A DNA stretch of 64,000 nt from Saksenaea vasiformis B4078 (taxonomy: Eukaryota; Mucoromycota; Mucoromycetes; Mucorales; Saksenaeaceae), in the NCBI GenBank assembly GCA_000697055.1, contig JNDT01002401.1:49604-113603 (forward strand), written 5' to 3'. Every line of letters begins with the position of its first letter. Positions within the stretch are counted from its first letter, which is position 1. The notes below the pieces were generated by a model, which saw only the letters and a list, made by a program, of their open reading frames with translations, did no database searches and was not told the origin of the DNA. This document shows positions 20,457 through 38,265 of this stretch, in pieces. The translations under genes and the position numbers were made by a program.

Positions 20457-23400
20457 ATGGCAACTTCTCCTGTGCCATCGCAGACATCGACAAGAACTTC
20501 CTTAAACATCGCATCGCCTTCCACCGTAACATCCAGCTCAGTTTTTGTGGTCAATGCGCTGGAGAAATTTGCAGCCGCAAAGGAAACGAGGAAGAACAAG
20601 GCTCTCAAAGAAGCCGTTCAGAATGCTCAGAGTAAAACGCAATAGGTCGTACATATCGTGTAATGTCTTACTCGTAAACTATGTTAGACGTGCTAAAAAA
20701 CGGCGAAGAACCTCCTGAAGGGAAGACTCGGTAAGTCGAGGCAGAATTGGGTTTGTGCTTCAACGTGCTCATGTGCCGTTAAAAGGTCGACGGTCATTCT
20801 CGCTGCTTTGCAAATGGCCATCGATTCACGCAGCACCAATCTCATGACGATTGCTTTGGATTGTCTTGGAAAATTTATTACATATAACTACTTGGAGGAC
20901 ATGGAAGACGAGGCTGCACAGACCCAGGTGATGGAGAAGGTCGTAGATAGTATCTGTGATTGTTTTATTGGCGAAGAGACGGATGAAAAAGTACAGCTCC
21001 AGATCATCAAGGCGCTGCTGGATGCAGTATACTCAACAAGCAACCCGTTGCATTTATCTGCACTTTTAAAAGCCGTCCGAACCACCTACAATATCTTTTT
21101 GCTTTCTCGTAACAGTGCCAACCAAAATGTTGCTCAGGTTACGCTAACCCAAATGGTTGACCACGTCTTCCGAAGGATATCCCTCCATCCTCAGAATTCC
21201 TCACGTAGTACAACCTCCTTGAACGATGATCTGTCAAATGGTTCAACCTCCAAGACACAGGCAACATCTGTAGAAGAACCAGTGAAGCAGGAAGGAACGG
21301 GAAAGGAAGAGAATGAAGAGGAGGATGAATATCAGCAACAGATTATTGTGGAAGCCAACATGGCGCGGAGTGAAATGGATCAGAAATTACCCAGCGGAAA
21401 GGCACATGACAATTCAGAGGATTTTCTAAACGATACCGCAAGCATGTTTCAGGACGAGAGTATAATGTCTGGAGAAGAAGAAAAGCGGGTAGAAGAGACA
21501 ACCGTACAAGCAGAAGCATCGACTAGTCAGCAGGCTCCAGAGCCAAAGGAAGACGATCCTTCCGAGGAAGCAGACGGAGCAATGTATGGCAATTCTTACA
21601 GTGGAGACACAGTGTAACTTAGTTGTCTAAGTAGTCTATCCGAAGAGCGACAATCCTTTGATCATAGTGAGATGAAGTCAACTGCGTACGAGACGGAAGC
21701 CGATCTCTACATCAAGGATGCGATACTGGTGTTCCGTGCGCTCTGTAAACTGTCCAAAAAACAAATATCTTCCGAATGGTAATTTATGGTCCATCCGAAG
21801 TAGTAGATTAATTTATTGCTTTTTCCAGGGGAAATGATATGCGCTCTTACTCTATGCGATCAAAGCTGCTATCTTTGCATCTGATCTTAACCATTCTTAA
21901 TTCTCATATGAACGTATTTTCGTCACCAGATGTCATGTTCTCCGTTCCTGTAAACGACAACAAGAGCGAGCATTTTGTAAATCCTTTCATTTTGGAAGTA
22001 AAACAATATCTTTGCCCAAGTCTGGCGAAGAACGCGTTTTCCATGGTACCTCAGGTGTACAAAACAACATTGGAAATCTTATGGAAGGTTATACAAGGTC
22101 TTCGTGTATTTATGAAGGTAACTCGCAATTGAACAGTTCCTCCTTGCTGACTCTTCCACAGAAAGAAATCGAAGTATTTCTCAAGGAGATATTTCTGCGT
22201 ATTCTCGAAATGCGTAATGCATCATTACAACAGAAGCATGCCTTTTTGAAGGTTGTCCTGTGGATATGTAGTGATCCACAAACGTTAGTCGATATCTATC
22301 TGAATTATGATTGCGATCGACAGGCTCTGGATAATATTTACGAAAGGTAAGGATGACCATACAGAGGACATCACTCTCATTCGTGGAGAAAGGTTTGTCA
22401 ACGTGCTGTCCAAAATTACCACATCGCACATGGCACCAAACAGCAGCAGAGATCACGAAGTTCATGCTCCTTCGAGCCCACACGCATCCAATCATCATGG
22501 TTTACATGATAATTCTCTCATGATACCACCACCTTTGACCACGGCCAGAGTCCAATCGGACGACAAACACAGTAATCTGGGTGCCAACGTACCTGAATCG
22601 GCAATCAAGTACAAGTCATTGGAGTGCTTAGTTGCTGTACTACAGTCCTTAGTACAATGGTATACCAATAATTCAGTTAGCGTTCCAGCAGTGAGCCGAA
22701 ACGAGGTTGAAACGCCACGAGCAAGCGAAGACCAACGCCAGTCAACAGACATGTTGACAAGTCATAGCAATTCTTCCGCGCAACGTCTCTCTCCTGCGTC
22801 ATCTTCAGTAAGCGTCAACGGTACGGCGACTGGTAATTCGACGCCAAGACTCGATGACCCTGAACGGTTTGAAAGCAAAAAACATCGCAAACAACTGCTC
22901 CAGGAAGGTATTCGTCTTTTTAACTGGAAACCGAAGAAGGGACTGGATTTCCTTGCCAAACATCAACTGTTGAATCCTAAGGATTCTCTTGAAGTGGCGA
23001 AGTTCTTGCTCAAAACGGATGGACTAAGCAAAACGATGATAGGAGAGTTTTTGGGCGAGGGGTAAGTCATCTTGATCTGGATATATGTATGTACAGGTCC
23101 ATTCATCGGGCTTCCTTTAACAACAGAGAACCGCAAAACATCTCGATTATGCACGCTTTCGTTGATGAGCTTGACTTTACGGATATGGTTTTTGTTGATG
23201 CATTACGTCAGTTCCTGCAAACCTTCCGCTTGCCTGGTGAAAGTCAGAAAATTGATCGCTTCATGCTCAAGTTCGCAGAACGCTATGTTCATGGCAATCC
23301 GACTGTTTTTGCCAATGCAGGTAATGCCAAGGGTGAATTTCTCGATAGAATTACTGAAATGCTGCTGTAGAAACTGCCTACGTGCTTGCTTATGCTGTTA

Positions 23401-26400
23401 TCATGCTGAACACTGATCTGCATAATCCTCAGGTGAGGAGACATATGACACTCAGCGACTTTAAGAAGAACTGCAGAGGCATTGATGATGGAGGTGATAT
23501 TCCGGCAGAACTTTTGGAAGCGATTTTCGATGAGATCCAGAGCAATGAGATTAAGATGAAGGAAGAGGTGGAAGCTGCTGAAAACGCTGCACTTGCCGCA
23601 CCACAGGGAGGTGCAGGCGCGTTGGGTATGATGGGTCTACAAAATGCGCTTGTAAACGCGGGTATTGCTCGTGACGTGCGACGAGAGGCCTATCAGGCTG
23701 CAACAGAGGAACTGGGATCCAAGACAGAAGCCATGTTCCGTAACATGTTGGCCAGCCGACGGCGTGCAGGGGAGAGCGAGACTATTACATTCTACGTTGC
23801 ATCTCATGTCGAGCATGTACGTCCTATGTTTGAGATCGCATGGATGTCATTTTTGACGGGTATCTCCGGTCCCTTGCAAGAATCCGACGATTTGGATACT
23901 GTTCAATTGTGCTTAAACGGATTTAAGCACGCGATCCGCATCATTTGTTTGTTTCACACAGTTCAATCCGAGGATATGGATCTGCAGCGCCATGCATTTG
24001 TAACCACCTTGACCAACTTCACATTCTTAACTGATTTGAATGAAATGAAACCAAAAAATGTGGAAGCGATCAAGACGCTGCTAGAAATTGCAGCTGCGGA
24101 TGGCAATTATCTGAAGGGAAGCTGGAAAGAAATCCTGTCGACTGTTAGTCAACTGGAACGTTTCCAACTGATTACAAGCGGCATCGATCAAGGTGCATTG
24201 CCGGATATTTCGGCTATCCGTCATTCCAAGGCCATGAGCAAGCCGTCCGTCGATCTCGGACGACGCTCTACGCTCAACCGCCCAACACGTATGGGGACTC
24301 AATTAGTACTTGCAGAAGAGGTGGCATCTGCTGGTAGCTCACAGTCATTGGTGCTGGCTGTAGATAAACTGTTCACAGCTACTGTTAATCTTAATGGGGT
24401 AAGTTAATCACTATGATTTGTGCAGAGATTCTGAATGCATCTTAGGATGCCATTGTTGACTTTGTTCGCGCGCTTTGTGACACATCCTGGGAAGAAATTA
24501 TGTCATCTGCTCATTTGGAACATCCCAGAATGTACAGTTTGACAAAATTGGTAGAAGTCTCTTACTACAACATGAACCGTATCCGTATGGAATGGTCTAA
24601 TATCTGGGCTGTGTTAGGCGAGCATTACAACAAGGTACAGGAAACAAAAAATAGGACTACCCATGACTCATCATCTGCTTTTAGGTTGGTTGTCAGTCAA
24701 ACTTCAAGGTAGCGTTTTTTGCGCTGGATTCTCTGCGACAATTGGCAATGCAGTTCTTGGAAAAAGAGGAACTCCCCCACTTCAAGTTCCAAAAAGATTT
24801 TCTAATGCCGTTCCGCGACATCTTAGCCAATAATCCGGCCATTGCTATTAAGGACATGGTGCTTCGTTGCTTATCTCAGATGATATTGGCACGAGCACAC
24901 CATATCCGTTCAGGCTGGAAAACGATGCTAGCTGTCTTTGCTTCTGGAGCACAGGAAACGACTGGTATGTGTTAGATGCGTAACCGGAACGAGAGATCTG
25001 ACTTTGCTAGCAGAATCCATTGTCCACATGACGTTTGACATCGTCCGTAGCATCAATAATGAGCGATTTGGCGATATTATTGCCAATGGCACCTTCCCAG
25101 ACTACATTTCTTGTCTTGTCGAATTTTCGAAAAACAAAAATTTCCAGAAAATCAGGTATGTACTAGATCGTCACCACCGAGATTTTACTGAACGATGCAT
25201 TAGTCTTCCTTCGTTAGACATGATCAATGATACCATACCGAGGATGCTGCAAATCGCGAATGGAAAGGCGATCGAAATTAATGATGCTCATGCAGTCTCT
25301 ACTTCTGGCCAGACGGTGCAATCAGGCGATGACTTTTTGGTGAAGTTTTGGTTTGCAGTTCTTTTCGGTCTTAAGGAAGTGACAATGCAGAGCAATGATG
25401 TGGAAGTCCGGAAGAGGTTAGTTACCTCAACATGCGTATGGATGACTTATTTTTTTTATTTCAGGGCATTGCAATATTTGTTTGACACGCTAAAGAAGCA
25501 TGGTTCTTCTTATGCACCCGAATTTTGGACGACCATTTCAAAGCAGATCGTGTTCCCGTTGTTTGACGATCTAAAAGCCGATTCCCGACATCAGCGTACC
25601 ATGTCTCCGGAAGATTTGAGTGTCTGGCTTTCAACGACCATGATCGAAGCACTTCGTAACGTTGTTGATCTCTACACCTTCTATTTTGATAACATGCGGG
25701 GGATGATGCGCCACGTTCTTGGTTTGTTTGGTGTTTGCATCACACAAGGTAATTGTATGAATAGATCATGCATGAAACTAACGCGACGTATTTAGATAAT
25801 GACACACTTGCGCGCATTGGTTGCGAATGCCTCGAGCAATATATTGAGACGAACGTTGAGAAATTTGATACCGAGTGCTGGGATCTCATTACCGAGACAT
25901 TTGTCAATCTATTCGAAAATACCACGGCACATGATCTGTTTGATGCCACGGAAGATATTGTCGAGAAAGTTAAAGCAATGTCGGAAGGTAGTGTTTCTCT
26001 TTTACAGTAGATTGCATTTTATTAAGCCTTTCCGTAGCAGAGTCAACTTCGCTTGACGTTATGAATGCAGAACCGAATAGTGCATTACGCGTTGAGATCA
26101 GCGAAGAACGACAACGTAGTTTCCAGCAAGTCATTGTGAAATGTGTCTTGCAGTTGATGTTAATCCAGACTGTCAACGAGCTTCTGAGCAAAGATACTGT
26201 GTACTGCGCTTTCCCAGCTTTCCATCTGATGGAACTGATGAAATGTCTTGGACGGTCCTTCCATTTTGCCAAACGATTTAATATGGATAACGATCTCCGT
26301 ATGGCCTTATGGCGATTTGGTAAGACTCAGTTATCCTGGAGTGGATGTATTTAACCTCTGTTTTGAAGGCTTTATGAAACAATTACCTAACCTGTTAAAA

Positions 26401-26888
26401 CAAGAAACGTCAAGTGGCGGCTGTTATGTTTCTGTGCTGATGAGGATGTATGCCAATCTCGAAAATATTAGCGATCGCGATGACAAACGCGAAGAAATTG
26501 AAAACACACTGATACCGTAAGTTGATTGCATCATCTCATACATTCGTCTCATTTGATTTCATAGACTTTGTAATGAAATATTCACAATTTACACCGAACT
26601 GGACCACGAAACAAAACCCAAAAATATTGCAGCATGGACACCTGTGGTCGTATCGATCTTACATGGTTTGGCACAGCTGCAAGATGAAGACGTAAGCAAA
26701 AGAAAAAGAGAGGGAGGCCTTGTCACACTAACGTGATTTTGTAATGTTAGTTTTTGAGATATGTACCACGTTTCTACATCCCGGCTGTAGAATTATTGGG
26801 ACAAGACAATTTGCTTCCCGAGATCAGAATAGCGTTGCGAGCGCTTCTACTTCGCATTGGCAAAACGTATAATATTGGCTTAGAATAA
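20457..26888 (+). CDS. SEC7: Sec7/BIG-type ARF guanine-nucleotide exchange factor
   Basis: Nineteen exons between 20457 and 26888; the first begins [13 protein letters not shown] and the last is 26751-26888. The spliced model is 1,843 codons plus stop, the normal size for large ARF-GEFs. The N-terminal DCB and HUS regions include [11 protein letters not shown] and DIYLNYDCD. The catalytic Sec7 domain spans about residues 710-876, with [11 protein letters not shown], the Glu finger in [19 protein letters not shown] and [16 protein letters not shown]-terminal HDS repeats follow. Such proteins load GTP on ARF at the trans-Golgi. All junctions keep phase if a 39-nt intron (21584-21622) is spliced out; otherwise a TAA at 21615-21617 would stop translation. 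The middle linker (about 21.2-21.6 kb) is acidic and poorly conserved in type. Confidence 0.95.
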
Positions 26889-26904
26889 ATGAACAATCAC
26901 TTAA

Positions 26905-29841
26905 CTAGTTAAGGGACGTGGCTGCGTGATCAGCCGCATTCGTTCGGCGGAAAGCAGGAGGACGCTTGTTCTCGTTCCGCATCATGTACGTGAAGACCTT
27001 CCAGATGTTACTCGCGGCCATACGGTCCCGGTCCCAGAAATTCCCCGTGCATGAACTGTTTTGACACTTCAACACAGCGTGGATCTTCATTGCTTGGCCG
27101 TCTGCATCTTGTTTTTCCTTGGCATTCTTTAAATCGCGTATACCACAGAGAGGACAGATTTGCGATGTTAAATATTCATCTATCATAAAGACGAAAGTGG
27201 GAACCTAGAGACAGGTGTGAGTAATGTCCTGCCTTGAATATCACTTACACTTCGTTGTTTTGCCTTCTGTTTGAGTTTGCTGACTATTGCCTTCGTTGGT
27301 GCAGCTGGTCTGCCTTCCATACTCCCGGAGAAGGCGGCATTCCCGTACGCGATGATGATTGGACGGTTTCTTTCGTTGGCTTCATCATTCGGCGAACGCA
27401 GCACCCACTTTTTCTTGCTTGCTTTTTTCATGTTTTTCGTATTCTTGTGATCGTATTTCGCGCTCCCATACAGGAGACGATTAGCAATTTCATTGTTCCT
27501 TTTTGTCTCCCGATGTAGGATTTGAATTTCAATTTGCTATATCTTAAAGTAAAGTTGTCAGTGCAAAGAGAAGAGACTGTCACCCTCACAGTATACCTGA
27601 GCTCGCGGTCGTAGAAGCCGGTAATCCTGTCGTAATGGGTGAATATGTATGACATTGCCGAAGTCATTTCTCCTAAATCCACTGTTTTCAGCGAGGGAAT
27701 CTTATCGATGATAGGTTTCGTTTCGGCTTCTTTCTCAAGGTAAGAATTTCGTAGGCGAGTCGCATGGTTAAATCCACAAAGAGAATAATACTCTTTGGTT
27801 GTGGTTCGGCGTACTCTGTGGGGTGTATTACCACCTCCATCCGCAGCCACGAATAAACTTGAGACGCCGGGGTCGACGCCCCAGATTACCGCGTTTGGAT
27901 ACTTGTCTTTTATATCGGCCGGCGTAAGGACTTTTCGCTTCGGATCAAAAGGAGTCTTGTATTTTTTAAAAATGAACTTAATATCCACGCCATGGTGCGG
28001 ATTGTGTCCCTATGAACCATGTCAGTAGTACGCTCCAGAAATCGCACAAATATACCAAAATATCGAAGTCTCTGTCTCGAGACTTTCAAAGGTCTTGTGC
28101 CCGATTTTCGCCATATCAAACGCGCGGAAATATTCGCACCGTACATCTGCTGTTTTCCAGACCGAGTCACTGTAACGCATACCAGCTTGGGTAAGCAATC
28201 GACCAAATGTCTGACTGTCGATGGTTATATGTCGCATCTGGAGACTGTACAATGGAAGAATGGTAAATTTTCTTGAACCTTTTGGGTCCGTATATTTGTG
28301 CGGGAAAAATGAATCGTTCTCGATTGAAGTTGTGGTATCTTTGATAAACTTCTCAACAGCTATGATCTCCGTCTCTGGAAGGGTTTTGATCTTCTTTGGC
28401 AGTTTTAGAGTGGAACGACATTTAATAGCTGTTCTGATTGCGTACTTGAGACTTGACAAGATCCGCTTGGACATATTGCTCGTGTTTACTAACTATAAAG
28501 TAGATCAGTCACCGGAATGTATAGCAGGCAAACATTACCTCTTTGGTCTTTCGATGAATATACCCTAACGATACATACTTCTGTGGTTTTGGTTCTTTGA
28601 TTGACACCTTTTTGTTAAAGCGTTCCAGAATATGGAAGAACCAAGGTAAAAAGAGATGCGGTTCGGCGTTCAGTATCTTCTCGTCAATCTTGCTGACACC
28701 AATGATTTTCTGAACCGTTGCGACTTGATCATTTACATATTTTCGATTCTCCTTCGTACGCGGAATCGAGCCAGGCCAAGAGTGGTCATCACCACAGACT
28801 TTATGATAGATTATATCCACGACTGTTCGGCGATCTTACTGATAACGTCTTCAGAACAGCAGAGTTATCGTCGTCAGACATGCACCCCAGCAAGTATTGT
28901 TTGGTTCGTCTTTCAAAGTTCTCTGTAATGTGATTTCGGATTGTTTCTTCGTACTCCTTCGAAGCTGAGGAGATGATCGTCATGAAACCTTCGGAACGGA
29001 AATCGGAAGGATCAAAACTTGGTATTGATTACTTGAATGCTGCATATGTTTCTTGCAACGTCGCATCCGAATCTTTGCCGTGACCAGCGATAAGCGAGAA
29101 TATGTTATAACAGAGGCTATGCGTGATCTGCGGCAGTTGCTTTTTCTCAGAGTATAGCTTTGTGAAGTAATAGTTTGCAAACACTGCCCCGGCATATGTG
29201 ATATCTCTCACATTTTTTACGCAGTTTACGATGTGGCCGGCCAGGTTTGGGTCGTGGCAGACCGTACTGAGCGATGCCTTTATCACACTGGTTTGCTTGA
29301 AATCTTTGGGCGGTTTCCGCTTTTTGACATGCTTTTCGCACAGTTTACTGGTGATTCTTTGATGGTCGGTCTTGCCACACGTGGGACATCGCAATGTTCT
29401 TCCCTTTGAGAGTAACACCTCTCTTCTTTCTTTCGCAATCTTTGCTCGTGCTTCGTACTTGGCGCTCCGCTTGGCGTATGCTTTCTCAGCCTTGACAAGC
29501 GCCTTCGACTTTTTAGTTGACGTATTCGCTGAGGTTTGATAAAATCAATCACAGGCAAAATCTGAAAGTGGTCATACCTGATGTAGAGGCCACACCAGGT
29601 TCCTCCTCAGACGATGATGGAACGGAACGATGATGAGAACTGCTGCTGGCTTCAGGCAGAGCTGCCGCTTTTCCTTTCCCTTTTTCTATGATGAAACAAT
29701 GTCAAAAGCTTTTTTTTTTCCAAAGAAAAAAAATAAAGAAGTGCTTGTGCATGTACCTAACCGTGTTTCCCTGCGTATTTTTATGGGAGGTTGGAAATCT
29801 TCGTCGTCGGGATCCAGTTTATGCTTTTCTGATGATTCCAT
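26905..29841 (-). pseudogene. Fanzor-type RNA-guided nuclease (eukaryotic TnpB homologue), probably broken
   Basis: Minus-strand exons: 29757-29841, 29578-29685, 28539-29528, about 28056-28492, 27590-28009, 27249-27536, 26905-27204. The start reads MESSEKHKLDPDDEDF, followed by an acidic/Lys linker. Next come a Cys pair in RCPTCGK and a helical region with ETIRNHITENFERRTKQYL. The RuvC core follows: WGVDPGVSSLFVAADG (first Asp), then IIIAYGNAAFSG, and the rearranged Glu in FVFMIDEYLTSQ. A zinc ribbon CPLCG..CQNSSC and the last Asp in NFWDRDRMAASNI complete it. This order is that of Fanzor proteins, OMEGA nucleases cutting DNA with a guide RNA. Lesions: TAA at 29029-29031 inside a continuous frame, a one-base shift near 28.84 kb, and a phase mismatch at the 28056/28009 intron. 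All catalytic motifs remain. Confidence 0.85.
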
Positions 29842-30409
29842 ATTTGAAGCGACGACAAGGAAAAAGAGAGAAGTCAGATCGATTTCATGCTATTTATATG
29901 ATACGTACTACAGTCACATCAATGCGATCATTGTAATCGTCAGAGTGAACGAACCCATTTAATCAGTTACAACTAGGAAAAAGCAAGCGGAGCAAAATCC
30001 AAGGACGACATTGCTACCGGGAACATGCGTGAATCGATGATGTACTTCAAGAAGACAGTCCGTAGATATACATCACACAAAGTCGACTTGTAAAAGAAAC
30101 GCTGAACAAAGAAATAAAAACGGGCAGAAACAGTGCACCAAGGAAGCATTACAAATTCACAGGAGGCATATAAAAAGAACTGGTTACTGAGAACACTGAG
30201 TGTGCTTGGAGGTGACTTTCGGATAATCCTGAAAATCTTGCAACCGTAATTTATCAATTCCATGCGTCTGATATAAATCCATACAGCAGGGAAATCAAAA
30301 AGGACAAAGGCACAACTGTACGATTCAGTCATACAAAGTAAGTAAACTTCATGTCAAATACTGGATCTTGCTTCTTGGCAGCCGTAAAGGATTCCGGAAC
30401 TCCACCACG
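29842..30409. other. Intergenic
   Basis: Upstream of the Fanzor gene and downstream of the small TM-protein gene, both minus. A 119-codon minus-strand frame (29973-30332) has no recognised domain and is not called. Confidence 0.45.
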
Positions 30410-30818
30410 CTAGATTACCATTAATTCATCTCCAAGCTCTGATTCTTTTTTCTTTTTTTTCAACAACCATGAGGATGTAAGGCTTTTCTTGACATAAAAA
30501 AAAAGCAAGGACAGCAGTATCAATAGAAGCAGGAAGCAAGGGTCAGTATGTTCAATGCGATATGGCCCAGGGAGATATCGGTGGCCGCAAGATCCTGTCA
30601 TCCACTCTAGATAACCTTTATCTTTTGGTGTACCTTCTTCAATAATGATATCAATGCAAGTTACCGCGTGTTCCTCGGGTTTATCCCCGGATCCCTAAGA
30701 CAACCGTTAGCTTGAACCATTTAGAGCACAGGAACGTATACACAGAAAAAAAGAGGAACAGAACAGTAACAGAAAGTAAAGCTGGTATGCTCATTGCAGT
30801 TTGGTCCTCGTAGTCCAT
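30410..30818 (-). CDS. Small signal-peptide and single-TM protein, unknown
   Basis: Two exons on the minus strand, 30744-30818 and 30410-30694, joined in phase 0 by GTGTAT..CTTAG with a good branch-like gctaac; 119 codons plus stop. The N-terminus (MSIPALLSVTVLFLFFSGSG after a short acidic lead) looks like a signal peptide. The ectodomain contains three cysteines (VTCIDIIIEEGT, GSCGHRYLPGPYRI, TDPC). It is followed by a membrane helix FLLLLILLSLLFFYV, a KKKKK stop-transfer stretch and an acidic tail. This predicts a type I membrane protein. No family was recognised; transcription evidence is lacking. Confidence 0.5.
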
Positions 30819-31033
30819 AATGCGATGCGGACAGAGGCCAGTGAACAGGTGTTTGCGCTCTTTAGTCCAATCAAAAGTTCCAGTTAAAAAGACTATTTCC
30901 TTAGTAAGAGACTTTCTTTCCAGATTTTTATAAAAAGTGTCCCTAGCAGATTCCTTCAGCAGTAAATCACATATAAGCTAGCAACTGCGAAGCAGGATGG
31001 ATATGAAAGGGATAATGAAAGCTGTACTGCCAT

Positions 31034-31990
31034 TTATTGTGTGGCAGTCTTTGCTGCAATCACCATGTCTCTTCCCAATTGCAGGTAATGGATATCATGA
31101 AGTCTTGGCATAGAGTCACCGCTGGTAGCCATGACACCGTCGCCTACTAGGACAGGGGCAACAGTGATGATCAACTGATCTATGTGAGATGCAAGACATG
31201 ACCTGATTACTTTTGCACCTCCTTCTATCATCAACCGATGTATCCCATTTTGTTTTAAAACCTTATAAGCATCCTCCAGTACTATGCGGCCTATGTTGTT
31301 GTTGTTAAGAGAATGAATGGTACAACGATAGAACTACCATTATGAGTAGCTGCTGTCAAAATACGCGCGCCTGCCGCGATCAGAGCATTCTTTTCCACAA
31401 GAAATTAGTAAAAACAACTTTCACTCTTTTACAAACGTACATAGGATTCCTCGTTATGCGTGCAGGTTTCAGCGGTGGTGATCAACCAGGGCTGCTTACC
31501 TGTACCTTGCTGATAGTTTTTTAACAGTTTACACGACAGCGGTAGTTCGAGTCTAGGGTCCATTACAATAGGCTGCGGTTGCTCACAACGTTGAAGCACC
31601 AAGGGATCCAGTCGGCGAGCTATACAGAAGTAAAAAATGTACGATAATGATCAGAGGATTATGCAAGGGAAAGGTTACTCCTGCTCTTTTACCGTTCAGT
31701 TGTGGGTTATCTGCAAGGGCCGTGCCTATCCCGACAAGAATCCCTTCATGAAGGGTGCGCAACCTGTATCGATTTTTCTGTTTAGCGCATAGAGATAGAC
31801 GTGCTACGTGCCTGTGTGTCATGACCATGCTGTCATCGCCACTAAGCTGCAGCTGTCCACGATCTTTTGAACCGATCTTCCCGTCCAGACTCTGGGCAAA
31901 TGTCAATGTAATGTAGGGTCGATCGTCATTTGCTTTTTGATCCTTATAAATTCCCTCAAGGAAAGAATTTGCAATGGCATAGGAATCCAT
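31034..31990 (-). CDS. RIB7: RIB7-type diaminohydroxyphosphoribosylamino-pyrimidine reductase (riboflavin synthesis)
   Basis: Five exons on the minus strand: 31812-31990, 31693-31763, 31441-31619, 31338-31389, 31034-31290; 245 codons plus stop, the usual Rib7 size. The enzyme reduces the ribosylamino side chain of the early pyrimidine intermediate to ribitylamino with NADPH. Family blocks are RPYITLTFAQSLDGKIG, LRTLHEGILVGIGTALADNP, PIVMDPRLELP, RLMIEGGAKVIRSCL and ITVAPVLVGDG. The first intron uses a GC donor (CAG/GCACGT, 31811), needed to give MTHRLRTLHE in frame. The GT at 31805 would leave only a 30-nt intron. Start chosen at the first ATG (MDSYAIANSFLEGIY). Confidence 0.93.
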
Positions 31991-36387: not shown

Positions 36388-38265
36388 ATGCCTTCTGATC
36401 TACTCGCGCTGGCAAAGCGTGGACCTTTGGAGCGCGTATGGCTTGCTTCTCACTGCGAACGGAAAGTTTCAAAATCACAGTTCCTCCAGACAGATCTCGA
36501 GAAAACTATTGGTAGGATGATTATCTCCTAGACAACCAAGGGAAAAAAAAAAAAGAGAAAGAGCTCATCCTGACCAAAACCCCCTGTAAAAAATAGATGC
36601 CATCACAACCGATCAAGATGAACCGTTGACACTTCGAATTTCTGGTCAACTTTTGCTTGGTGTTACTCGTATCTACTCGCGCAAAACTCGGTACCTGTTA
36701 GAAGATTGTAACGAAGCTTATGTTAAAATCAAATCGGTATACGCATGTCATACAATGAACCATCATTAATATGTTTCTATAGGCTTTTAAAAAGGGCAAT
36801 GTCAACATGCCTGATATTCAACAAACTGTAGCCAATCTGAACGCCATTACCTTAGCGGAAGATCTGACTGAATTCGACCTTATGCTACCAGACGCACCTT
36901 TCAACACTACGTGAGTATCGTTGTTATGGTATCGATAGGCGTCTTATTGTCCTTTGCTAGGCCTTGGACTGGCAGAGATCCTGTTCTTGACTCGCTTTCG
37001 ATGTCACAAGATATCACGATGAACGACATGTCCTTCAACGATTACAGCTGGGCGTTTAGTGATATTGACCAGGGCCGCAACCTCCTTGAAGGCGAGCAAG
37101 GCGGTGGCATTGGAGCAGATGCTCTCGGTCTGGAATTCAGCGACAGAGAACGTGGTGTACGCGACGTTGACCATTCGTTCACTGCTGAAGAACTCAGTGA
37201 ACCATTAAAAGACATGAATATCGACGACAAGCAACAAGAAACCCGAACGGAAAACCCATTCCAGTTCGATGACGATTTCTTGGATTACGATTTCGACTTT
37301 GGCGAAACTGATCAACGTCCTGCCCAACCCGAAAATGAGACCGAACATCAGACTGCCTCCGATGCCGACGGCTCCATCAGTGCTCTTATGGAATCAGGTA
37401 CAACAGAAGCAAGCTATCTGTAGACAAGTACCTTAACCTGCTTTTATAACAGGCATCACACGCGATTGGGATGCAGAATCAACTACCACAACCTCTCCTG
37501 TTCGCCGCCGTCGACGACTTGTCGTGGATAAGGTGACTGAAATCCCTCATGAAGAGATCCGTCAACGTATGAACGACACATCAGCCATTATCGACAAGGT
37601 AAATCAAGAAAAAGTGAAAAGAAAAGGAAAGCTGAACATAGAGCTTTTCAGTCTGTGAACGTCCGTAAACCGAAACGTAAGCTGGCTCAACCTGATCTGT
37701 CAGTACCTTCCTGCGGCGTCAGTCTCGATGTGGAGCCATTCATTGCCGAGTTGACGAAAAAACGCAGAGCATCAAGGGCTTTGGACACGGCGCAAAGAGA
37801 CACACGAGTAGACGATATGGTGTTCGACGATTCGCTGCCTGTAGACCAGCCTGCACGAACGGATGCAGCAAACGATCAAGCGTTTGATTACGATCTCGAT
37901 TACGACTTTGGCAGTTTCGATGTTCGTTTTTGTTTACCTTTTTAAAATGTCGTTACTGATAGACTTCTTTTTAGGCCGGTCCGGAGGAACGTCCGCCTAC
38001 AACCACGGAGCTGAACATGGACGATCGTTTTGCTACACAAGCTAGTCAAACGTCGGTGTTCAACAGGGATACCCGTCAAACGGTGGAAGTACTGCAAAAC
38101 AAACTTGCCACAGCCCCTTCTGTCGAGTTCAGTGAACTAGCGCCGACCACAAGTGGGAGGGCCGATGCAGCACGTCTCTTTTATGACATACTGGTGCTCT
38201 CCACAAAAAATATGATCAAGGTCAAACAAGCCCGATCTTTCGGCGAAATTCAGATCCGTCAGTAA
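36388..38265 (+). CDS. RAD21: Cohesin subunit Rad21/Scc1 (kleisin)
   Basis: Seven exons: 36388-36511, 36597-36736, 36783-36910, 36961-37397, 37453-37598, 37652-37921, 37975-38265; 511 codons plus stop. The N-terminal kleisin domain reads [35 protein letters not shown], then [20 protein letters not shown]. Acidic [10 protein letters not shown] and a long Asp/Glu-rich middle follow. The C-terminal winged helix includes [20 protein letters not shown] and ends EIQIRQ. Rad21 closes the Smc1-Smc3 ring and is cut by separase. The usual MFYS start is replaced by [12 protein letters not shown] with the same spacing to the conserved block. Length is slightly short for the family. Rec8 is less likely given the Rad21-like N-terminus. 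Confidence 0.92.

Follow-up and report, generated by a model that had tools for sequence, protein, structure and literature searches.

A Fanzor1 gene whose stop codon forms the last three bases of the mobile element that carries it was found on the minus strand of the window, the stretch of 64,000 nucleotides of Saksenaea vasiformis B4078 DNA that was analysed in this study. The gene takes up most of a 4,020-bp element with defined ends; it is broken by four lesions, and copies of the element are dispersed through the genome. We lean, if only slightly, towards interpreting the element as a decayed, non-autonomous, Helitron-like transposon in which Fanzor1 is the sole recognised gene, which would have been moved by a RepHel protein acting in trans and whose ancestor would have performed ω-RNA-guided cutting.

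The gene (26905-29841) contains seven exons with GT..AG introns in a model for which the locus was read on both strands, and the minus-strand, seven-exon Fanzor gene that an earlier sequence-only reading had described is borne out by this model. Exon 1 (29757..29841) starts with the ATG at 29839-29841 and is followed by exon 2 (29578..29685). Exon 3 (28539..29528), placed by the gene model and the copy alignment, encodes a CPTC..H zinc-knuckle-like motif and contains a TAA at 29029-29031 and a 2-bp deletion near position 28838. Exon 4 (28056..28492) is placed by the gene model and by comparison with sister copies, and exon 5 (27597..28009), which has a 1-bp deletion near position 27994, encodes GVDPG with the first catalytic Asp (codon 27872-27874). 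IIIAYGNAAF is encoded by exon 6 (27249..27536; gene model and copy alignment), which has a 1-bp deletion near position 27495. Exon 7 (26905..27204) encodes MIDEYLTS with the Glu (codon 27175-27177), the C4 zinc ribbon CPLC..CQNSSC, WDRDRM with the final Asp (codon 27025-27027), and the stop codon. The coordinates of the catalytic codons were counted by hand from the translation, in which GVDPG, IIIAYGNAAF, MIDEYLTS, the C4 ribbon, and WDRDRM are all present, as the sequence-only reading had stated. The conceptual protein of the window copy has 874 positions, X at the breaks included, and GVDPG, IIIAYGNAAF, MIDEYLTS, and WDRDRM start at positions 584, 739, 782, and 832, respectively. Its N-terminal stretch is rich in lysine, acidic residues, and serine, in agreement with the lysine/acidic extension that had been noted earlier.

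The sole Pfam match at E ≤ 0.1 is PF07282 (34.8 bits, above the cut-off of 26.3), and a PDB sequence search at E ≤ 10 returned SpuFz1 (4.1e-8), GtFz1 (6.1e-5), and no others; the proposed membership in the Fanzors is upheld by the profile and receives sequence support from these two matches. In the SpuFz1 alignment, MIDEYLTS falls on LLDEYKTS and WDRDRM falls on YWNRDML (E = 0.0011 for this stretch), and the first Asp is matched in a weaker stretch only, VDPG on IDPN (0.27 taken alone). A PDB profile search built from three relatives returned GtFz1 (1.9e-4) and SpuFz1 (0.017), which is weaker than the single-sequence search. Comparison of residues 520 to 874, the RuvC/zinc part, with 5.8 billion proteins yielded three proteins among 2,209 candidates: one is unnamed (41% identity), and the other two, at 42% and 38%, are from Rhizomucor pusillus. 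All three retain the first Asp and the Glu, and two retain the last Asp, the third protein stopping short of the site. A counterpart of the N-terminal CPTC..H motif was found in P0002 only among these relatives. The RuvC Asp, the Glu beside the zinc ribbon, the C4 ribbon, and the final RD by which Fanzor1 is recognised in sequence are all present, and we classify the window gene as a Fanzor1 pseudogene.

The in-frame stop and the three deletions were located by alignment with seven other copies (L059, L060, L061, L062, L064, L065, and L067); L063 was omitted because contigs C10 and C115 do not differ over 9,875 bp. With one stop and three frame-breaking deletions, the window copy lacks an intact, expressible protein, and the description of a whole gene fails. 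What the sequence-only reading called a nuclease locus with all catalytic motifs stands as far as the motifs are concerned, whereas the frame is broken four times. A different exon 4-5 junction that would rescue the frame was ruled out, as the sister copies L017 and L025 read ..MFW and DTIRTDGVDVEF across the same junction; the deletion of the window copy just behind this junction also opposes the rescue. The other aligned copies are likewise broken (7/7, and hence 8/8 with the window copy). A whole protein is out of reach of the window copy, which could at most be mobilised or supply RNA to the proteins of other copies.

When the window copy is compared with each of the seven in turn, the differences per site are 0.040-0.055 at codon position 1, 0.032-0.055 at position 2, and 0.094-0.108 at position 3, and the corresponding means among the seven are 0.029, 0.037, and 0.049. 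Since the third-position differences of the window copy are approximately twice those at the first and second positions, a past protein function is indicated, and protein-level selection, which once acted on these lineages, has since faded: the pair L064-L067 is flat across the three positions (0.028, 0.028, and 0.032), and the pair L059-L064 keeps the third-position excess (0.034, 0.035, and 0.071). A frame-breaking deletion of 10 bp (13 bp in two copies) near position 27622 occurs in 5/8 aligned copies, which lie on contigs C371, C6, C282, C115, and C151 and have five different right flanks. Because the deletion is common to these copies and their right flanks differ, copies without a whole protein appear to have spread via proteins made elsewhere, i.e., dead copies were probably moved with help in trans. 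Gene conversion between copies may be an alternative source of the common deletion.

The element extends over 26905..30924 on the minus strand, reads 5'-TC...CTAG-3', and is flanked by A (30925) and T (26904), its limits being the breakpoints that are common to copies on other contigs. Copy comparison places the 5' terminus TC at 30923..30924 and the 3' terminus CTAG at 26905..26908, and the TAG of the latter (26905-26907) is the Fanzor stop codon. After the 5' TC, the window copy reads TCTGGAAAG and the other copies read TCTAGAAAAGG, the window copy being more diverged. A genome DNA search with the element gave 31 matches, and copy-to-copy comparison revealed sharp breakpoints on both sides. 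Four complete copies have lengths of 4,056-4,097 bp, and one with internal deletions measures 3,881 bp. The 30-base 3' end was found with at most one mismatch at 14 genome sites (0 for a reversed-pattern control), of which 11 are told apart by the right flank, since C371/C624, C6/C13, and C10/C115 have common flanks. The copy in the window is a member of a dispersed family with defined ends. The suggestion of a stranded or domesticated copy is contradicted by this multi-copy family and by the seven other aligned copies, which are broken too. The absence of terminal repeats, on which that suggestion was based, is correct insofar as the two ends show no significant inverted repeat; the conclusion fails, since the ends at 26905 and 30924 are common to other copies. 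Each of the three contig pairs has the element and the flank in common, and the identity between C10 and C115 noted above means that the assembly contains redundant or haplotype copies. The 5' end of the element also matches C21:24059-24242, C521:61016-61193, and C183:27294-27367, on contigs without the 3' end of the family; these matches are perhaps derivatives or other elements with the same head.

The base after CTAG is T at 10/11 distinct sites, the exception being G in C4, and TT follows at each of these 10; T at 10 or more sites would arise by chance with a probability of 2.7e-5. The base before TC is A at 6/7 distinct left sites, the exception being G in C648, and AA precedes at the same 6. 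Both TC and CTAG are observed in 6/6 copies with both ends, and no target-site duplication was found in 6/6 copies with both flanks. An unoccupied relative of two target sites exists as a repeat in C648, with the join at A^T; it agrees over 35 bases with the left flank of the C26 copy (97%) and over the following 61 with the right flank of C6/C13 (93%). It falls short of a strict before-and-after pair, because two separate insertions supplied the junctions and the matched stretches are short, and in the DNA examined no match spans any of the six joined flanks as a strict empty site would.

The 3' end of the element lies 16 bp behind a plus-strand TAA at 26886-26888. The frames upstream of this TAA (20814-26888, plus strand) gave DCB and Sec7 domain matches, making the neighbour a probable ARF exchange factor gene of the Sec7 type, which would then converge with the element. 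Elsewhere in the window, a nitronate monooxygenase is 70% identical over 88% to an Apophysomyces protein, and the next named fungal matches are mostly from Mucorales (46-57%; best 120 of 3,533), as befits a Mucorales-like host. The plus-strand exons from position 36388 onwards may encode a Rad21/Rec8 cohesin subunit, which they resemble.

Helitron1 transposons insert between A and T without duplication. In the available text of Bao and Jurka (2013; PMC3627910), Helitron1 is defined by the termini TC and CTRR together with a single hairpin close to the 3' end. The family described here has TC and CTAG termini, A/T flanks, and a hairpin that was obtained when the 3' end was folded, that of the window copy being weak. 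RepHel genes are present in the genome, with 23 matches to PF14214 and 33 to PF05970, and in a comparison of L068 and L069 no RepHel element with the same ends as the Fanzor element was found. L069, the tail of one RepHel gene, was rejected as a partner, as it has no CTAG in 801 bases, and L068 has no matching end. L068 contains, behind a RepHel gene, a 37-bp inverted repeat (96-132 and 308-344; 92% alike, approximately 175 bp apart), and similar sequence is also present on C219 and C657. An inverted repeat at 30916-30939/34437-34460 of the window was considered as a second Helitron end and rejected: its second arm lies inside an unrelated open frame, and the repeat is probably due to chance.

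The TAG at the element end is present at 14/14 sites and is in the frame of the Glu motif at 11/14; in C282, C559, and C623, the frame is broken before the terminal TAG. No element DNA follows the Fanzor stop, and two consequences arise from this arrangement: any guide-RNA scaffold would have to sit within the coding sequence, and a separate RNA gene behind Fanzor is excluded. A subterminal hairpin (26918..26937, minus strand) lies inside the reading frame, 13 bases before the element end, with a predicted 5-bp stem in the window copy and a 7-bp stem in the commonest form. Against shuffled sequences, the commonest form folds with a z-score of -5.83, and the window copy has a weak hairpin (-4.2 kcal/mol, z = -1.29). 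All seven stem pairs are kept in 4/8 distinct forms, and the second and third pairs are broken in 3/8 and 2/8, respectively. One stem pair is changed on both sides (C371/C624), a covariation that is non-significant, with 68/500 shuffles as good. For the 121-base 3' region of the window copy, the predicted fold is no more stable than those of shuffles (z = 0.38), and an Rfam search of 26400-31100 gave no match. Divergence over the last 33 bases exceeds that over the remainder of exon 7 without its last 60 bases, both in the window copy (0.134 vs 0.049) and among the other copies (0.068 vs 0.036). As folding, Rfam, and conservation are unsupportive, the ω-RNA is an expectation from the family and not a finding.

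Sister Fanzor subfamilies in the same genome were designated E (L026), B (L016, L017, L021, and L025), C (L019, L022, and L024), D (L023 and L058), and F (L042 and L055). Their elements end in CCTAG|TTA (C and E), CCTTG|TTA (D), CTTG|TTA (most B copies), and CTAG|T (F, two copies), with stop codons at varied distances from similar ends and right flanks that start with TT in most. The single copy of subfamily E (L026) likewise has the terminal TAG as its stop, and in B, C, and D, the stop is placed earlier. The non-coding tail of subfamily D, TATCCCATAACCTTG, is still similar to the coding tail of the C10 copy, TATCCCTTAACTAG, which hints that the bases themselves, beyond the amino acids, matter. 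Subfamily F has CTAG|T after a different tail, with only CTAG in common with the window family, and L042 has a similar stem 51 bases from the end, vs 13 in the window family. A 20-base pattern for subfamily C matched 11 right ends at no more than one mismatch and a further 8 places at 3 mismatches (5 in the control). PF07282 has at least 137 matches in this genome (38.7 Mb, 666 contigs; 150 of 388 candidates scored), many of them just 24-40% identical to the window Fanzor1, and several Fanzor/TnpB-like families seem to have expanded here.

Rather than by a Helitron, the same decayed Fanzor1 might be carried by a DNA transposon with short imperfect inverted repeats, which would insert at AA/TT without duplication and whose terminal stem would be only the last stem of the ω-RNA; we regard this as rather unlikely, and we weight the Helitron about twice as heavily. 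The left end, CTAGAAAAGG, and the inverted right end, CTAGTTAAGG, are alike at 8/10 bases, but the left-right similarity within the family is non-significant (p = 0.06 for C10 and 0.24 for C648). The left end resembles the right end of sister E when the latter is inverted (p = 0.002 in one out of seven comparisons), which is why the inverted-repeat carrier is kept as a rival; SpuFz1 elements have inverted repeats of about 30 nt according to the available text of PMC10432273. On the other hand, none of the 11 right ends of subfamily C has an inverted partner among the matches near it, several being close to contig ends, target-site duplications are absent, and subfamily F has only CTAG in common with the window family. 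The CTTG ends of subfamilies B and D, which are not CTRR, count against the Helitron reading. A transposon type that inserts between A and T runs and makes no target-site duplications was also considered and set aside, a literature search having given nothing.

Alternatively, the carrier would be Helitron-like and Fanzor a captured passenger without a role, the identity of stop and terminus being accidental. The breakage of all eight aligned copies, the apparent spread of broken copies, and the lack of an RNA signal by folding, Rfam, or conservation suit this explanation, which we nevertheless judge improbable: the codon positions point to past protein selection between copies, the stop of sister E (L026) also lies in the terminal CTAG, and the tail of D, although non-coding, is still similar to the coding tail of the window family. 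Finally, the catalytic motifs are kept and the gene lies 16 bp behind a conserved gene, as might be expected of a domesticated or active single-copy Fanzor, but the four lesions and the dispersed multi-copy family make this highly implausible.

Among known systems, SpuFz1 of Spizellomyces punctatus resembles the window gene in the Asp/Glu/Asp order of the RuvC domain, the zinc ribbon, and the multi-copy element, for which the available text of PMC10432273 gives no internal transposase as found; it differs in its inverted repeats and in an ω-RNA after the stop, whereas here there is no significant inverted repeat and no DNA after the stop. In GtFz1 of Guillardia theta, the ω-RNA overlaps the coding end (17 residues) in the same text; that overlap is partial, while here no element DNA is left after the stop. 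The available text of PMC3627910 describes CRe-1, -2, and -3 of Chlamydomonas as intron-bearing Fanzor1 genes in non-autonomous Helitrons, and the Fanzor-Helitron association is already known from this alga. These are of the Helitron2 type: their terminal repeats are asymmetric, both ends carry hairpins, they insert after TTTT, and many copies show duplications, whereas the window element has TC..CTAG, AA/TT sites, and no duplication seen. The same text places Fanzor1 without its own transposase in moulds of the same order (Mucorales ROr-4, PBl-3, and MCi-4), there with MuDR-like TIRs and 9-bp duplications, unlike the window element. PpFz1 of Parasitella parasitica, also a Mucorales Fanzor1, has a 75-nt ω-RNA with a stem loop between SL1 and the guide, a place comparable to that of the hairpin here, and its RuvC insertion binds cyclophilin (PMC11423790, available text); unlike SpuFz1 and GtFz1, it gave no match among the PDB results at E ≤ 10. 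The available literature on Fanzors in fungi, Mucorales, and Helitrons yielded no Fanzor carried by a TC..CTAG Helitron, nor one that stops where its element ends, and the fungal TC..CTAG carrier with a stop codon at its terminus appears to be a novel form of the known association.

If the Helitron-like carrier is assumed, a RepHel-type rolling-circle transposase would have placed the element in trans into AA/TT sites. In the living ancestor, the Fanzor protein would have bound an ω-RNA transcribed from its own coding strand at the 3' end, with the hairpin as part of it; this RNA would have run across CTAG into the flank, so that the flanking DNA served as the guide. The protein may then have cut the unoccupied homologous site beside an AA-containing motif, and repair after the cut would have copied the element, as proposed for TnpB with TnpA. 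Somewhat short of an even chance, and put forward tentatively, is the fuller proposal that a fungal Fanzor gene, its guide-RNA scaffold, and a rolling-circle terminus are one stretch of DNA, with the stop codon as the CTAG end of a Helitron and the transposase in trans. The window copy itself is ordinary, a dead transposon passenger. The fungal family offers a setting in which such ideas can be tested: its ends are of the Helitron1 type, it has related sister subfamilies, and its nuclease frame stops exactly where the element does. If the proposal is true, every insertion would fuse the scaffold directly to a guide from the new site, and eukaryotes would have their own equivalent of the TnpA-TnpB partnership in IS200/IS605.
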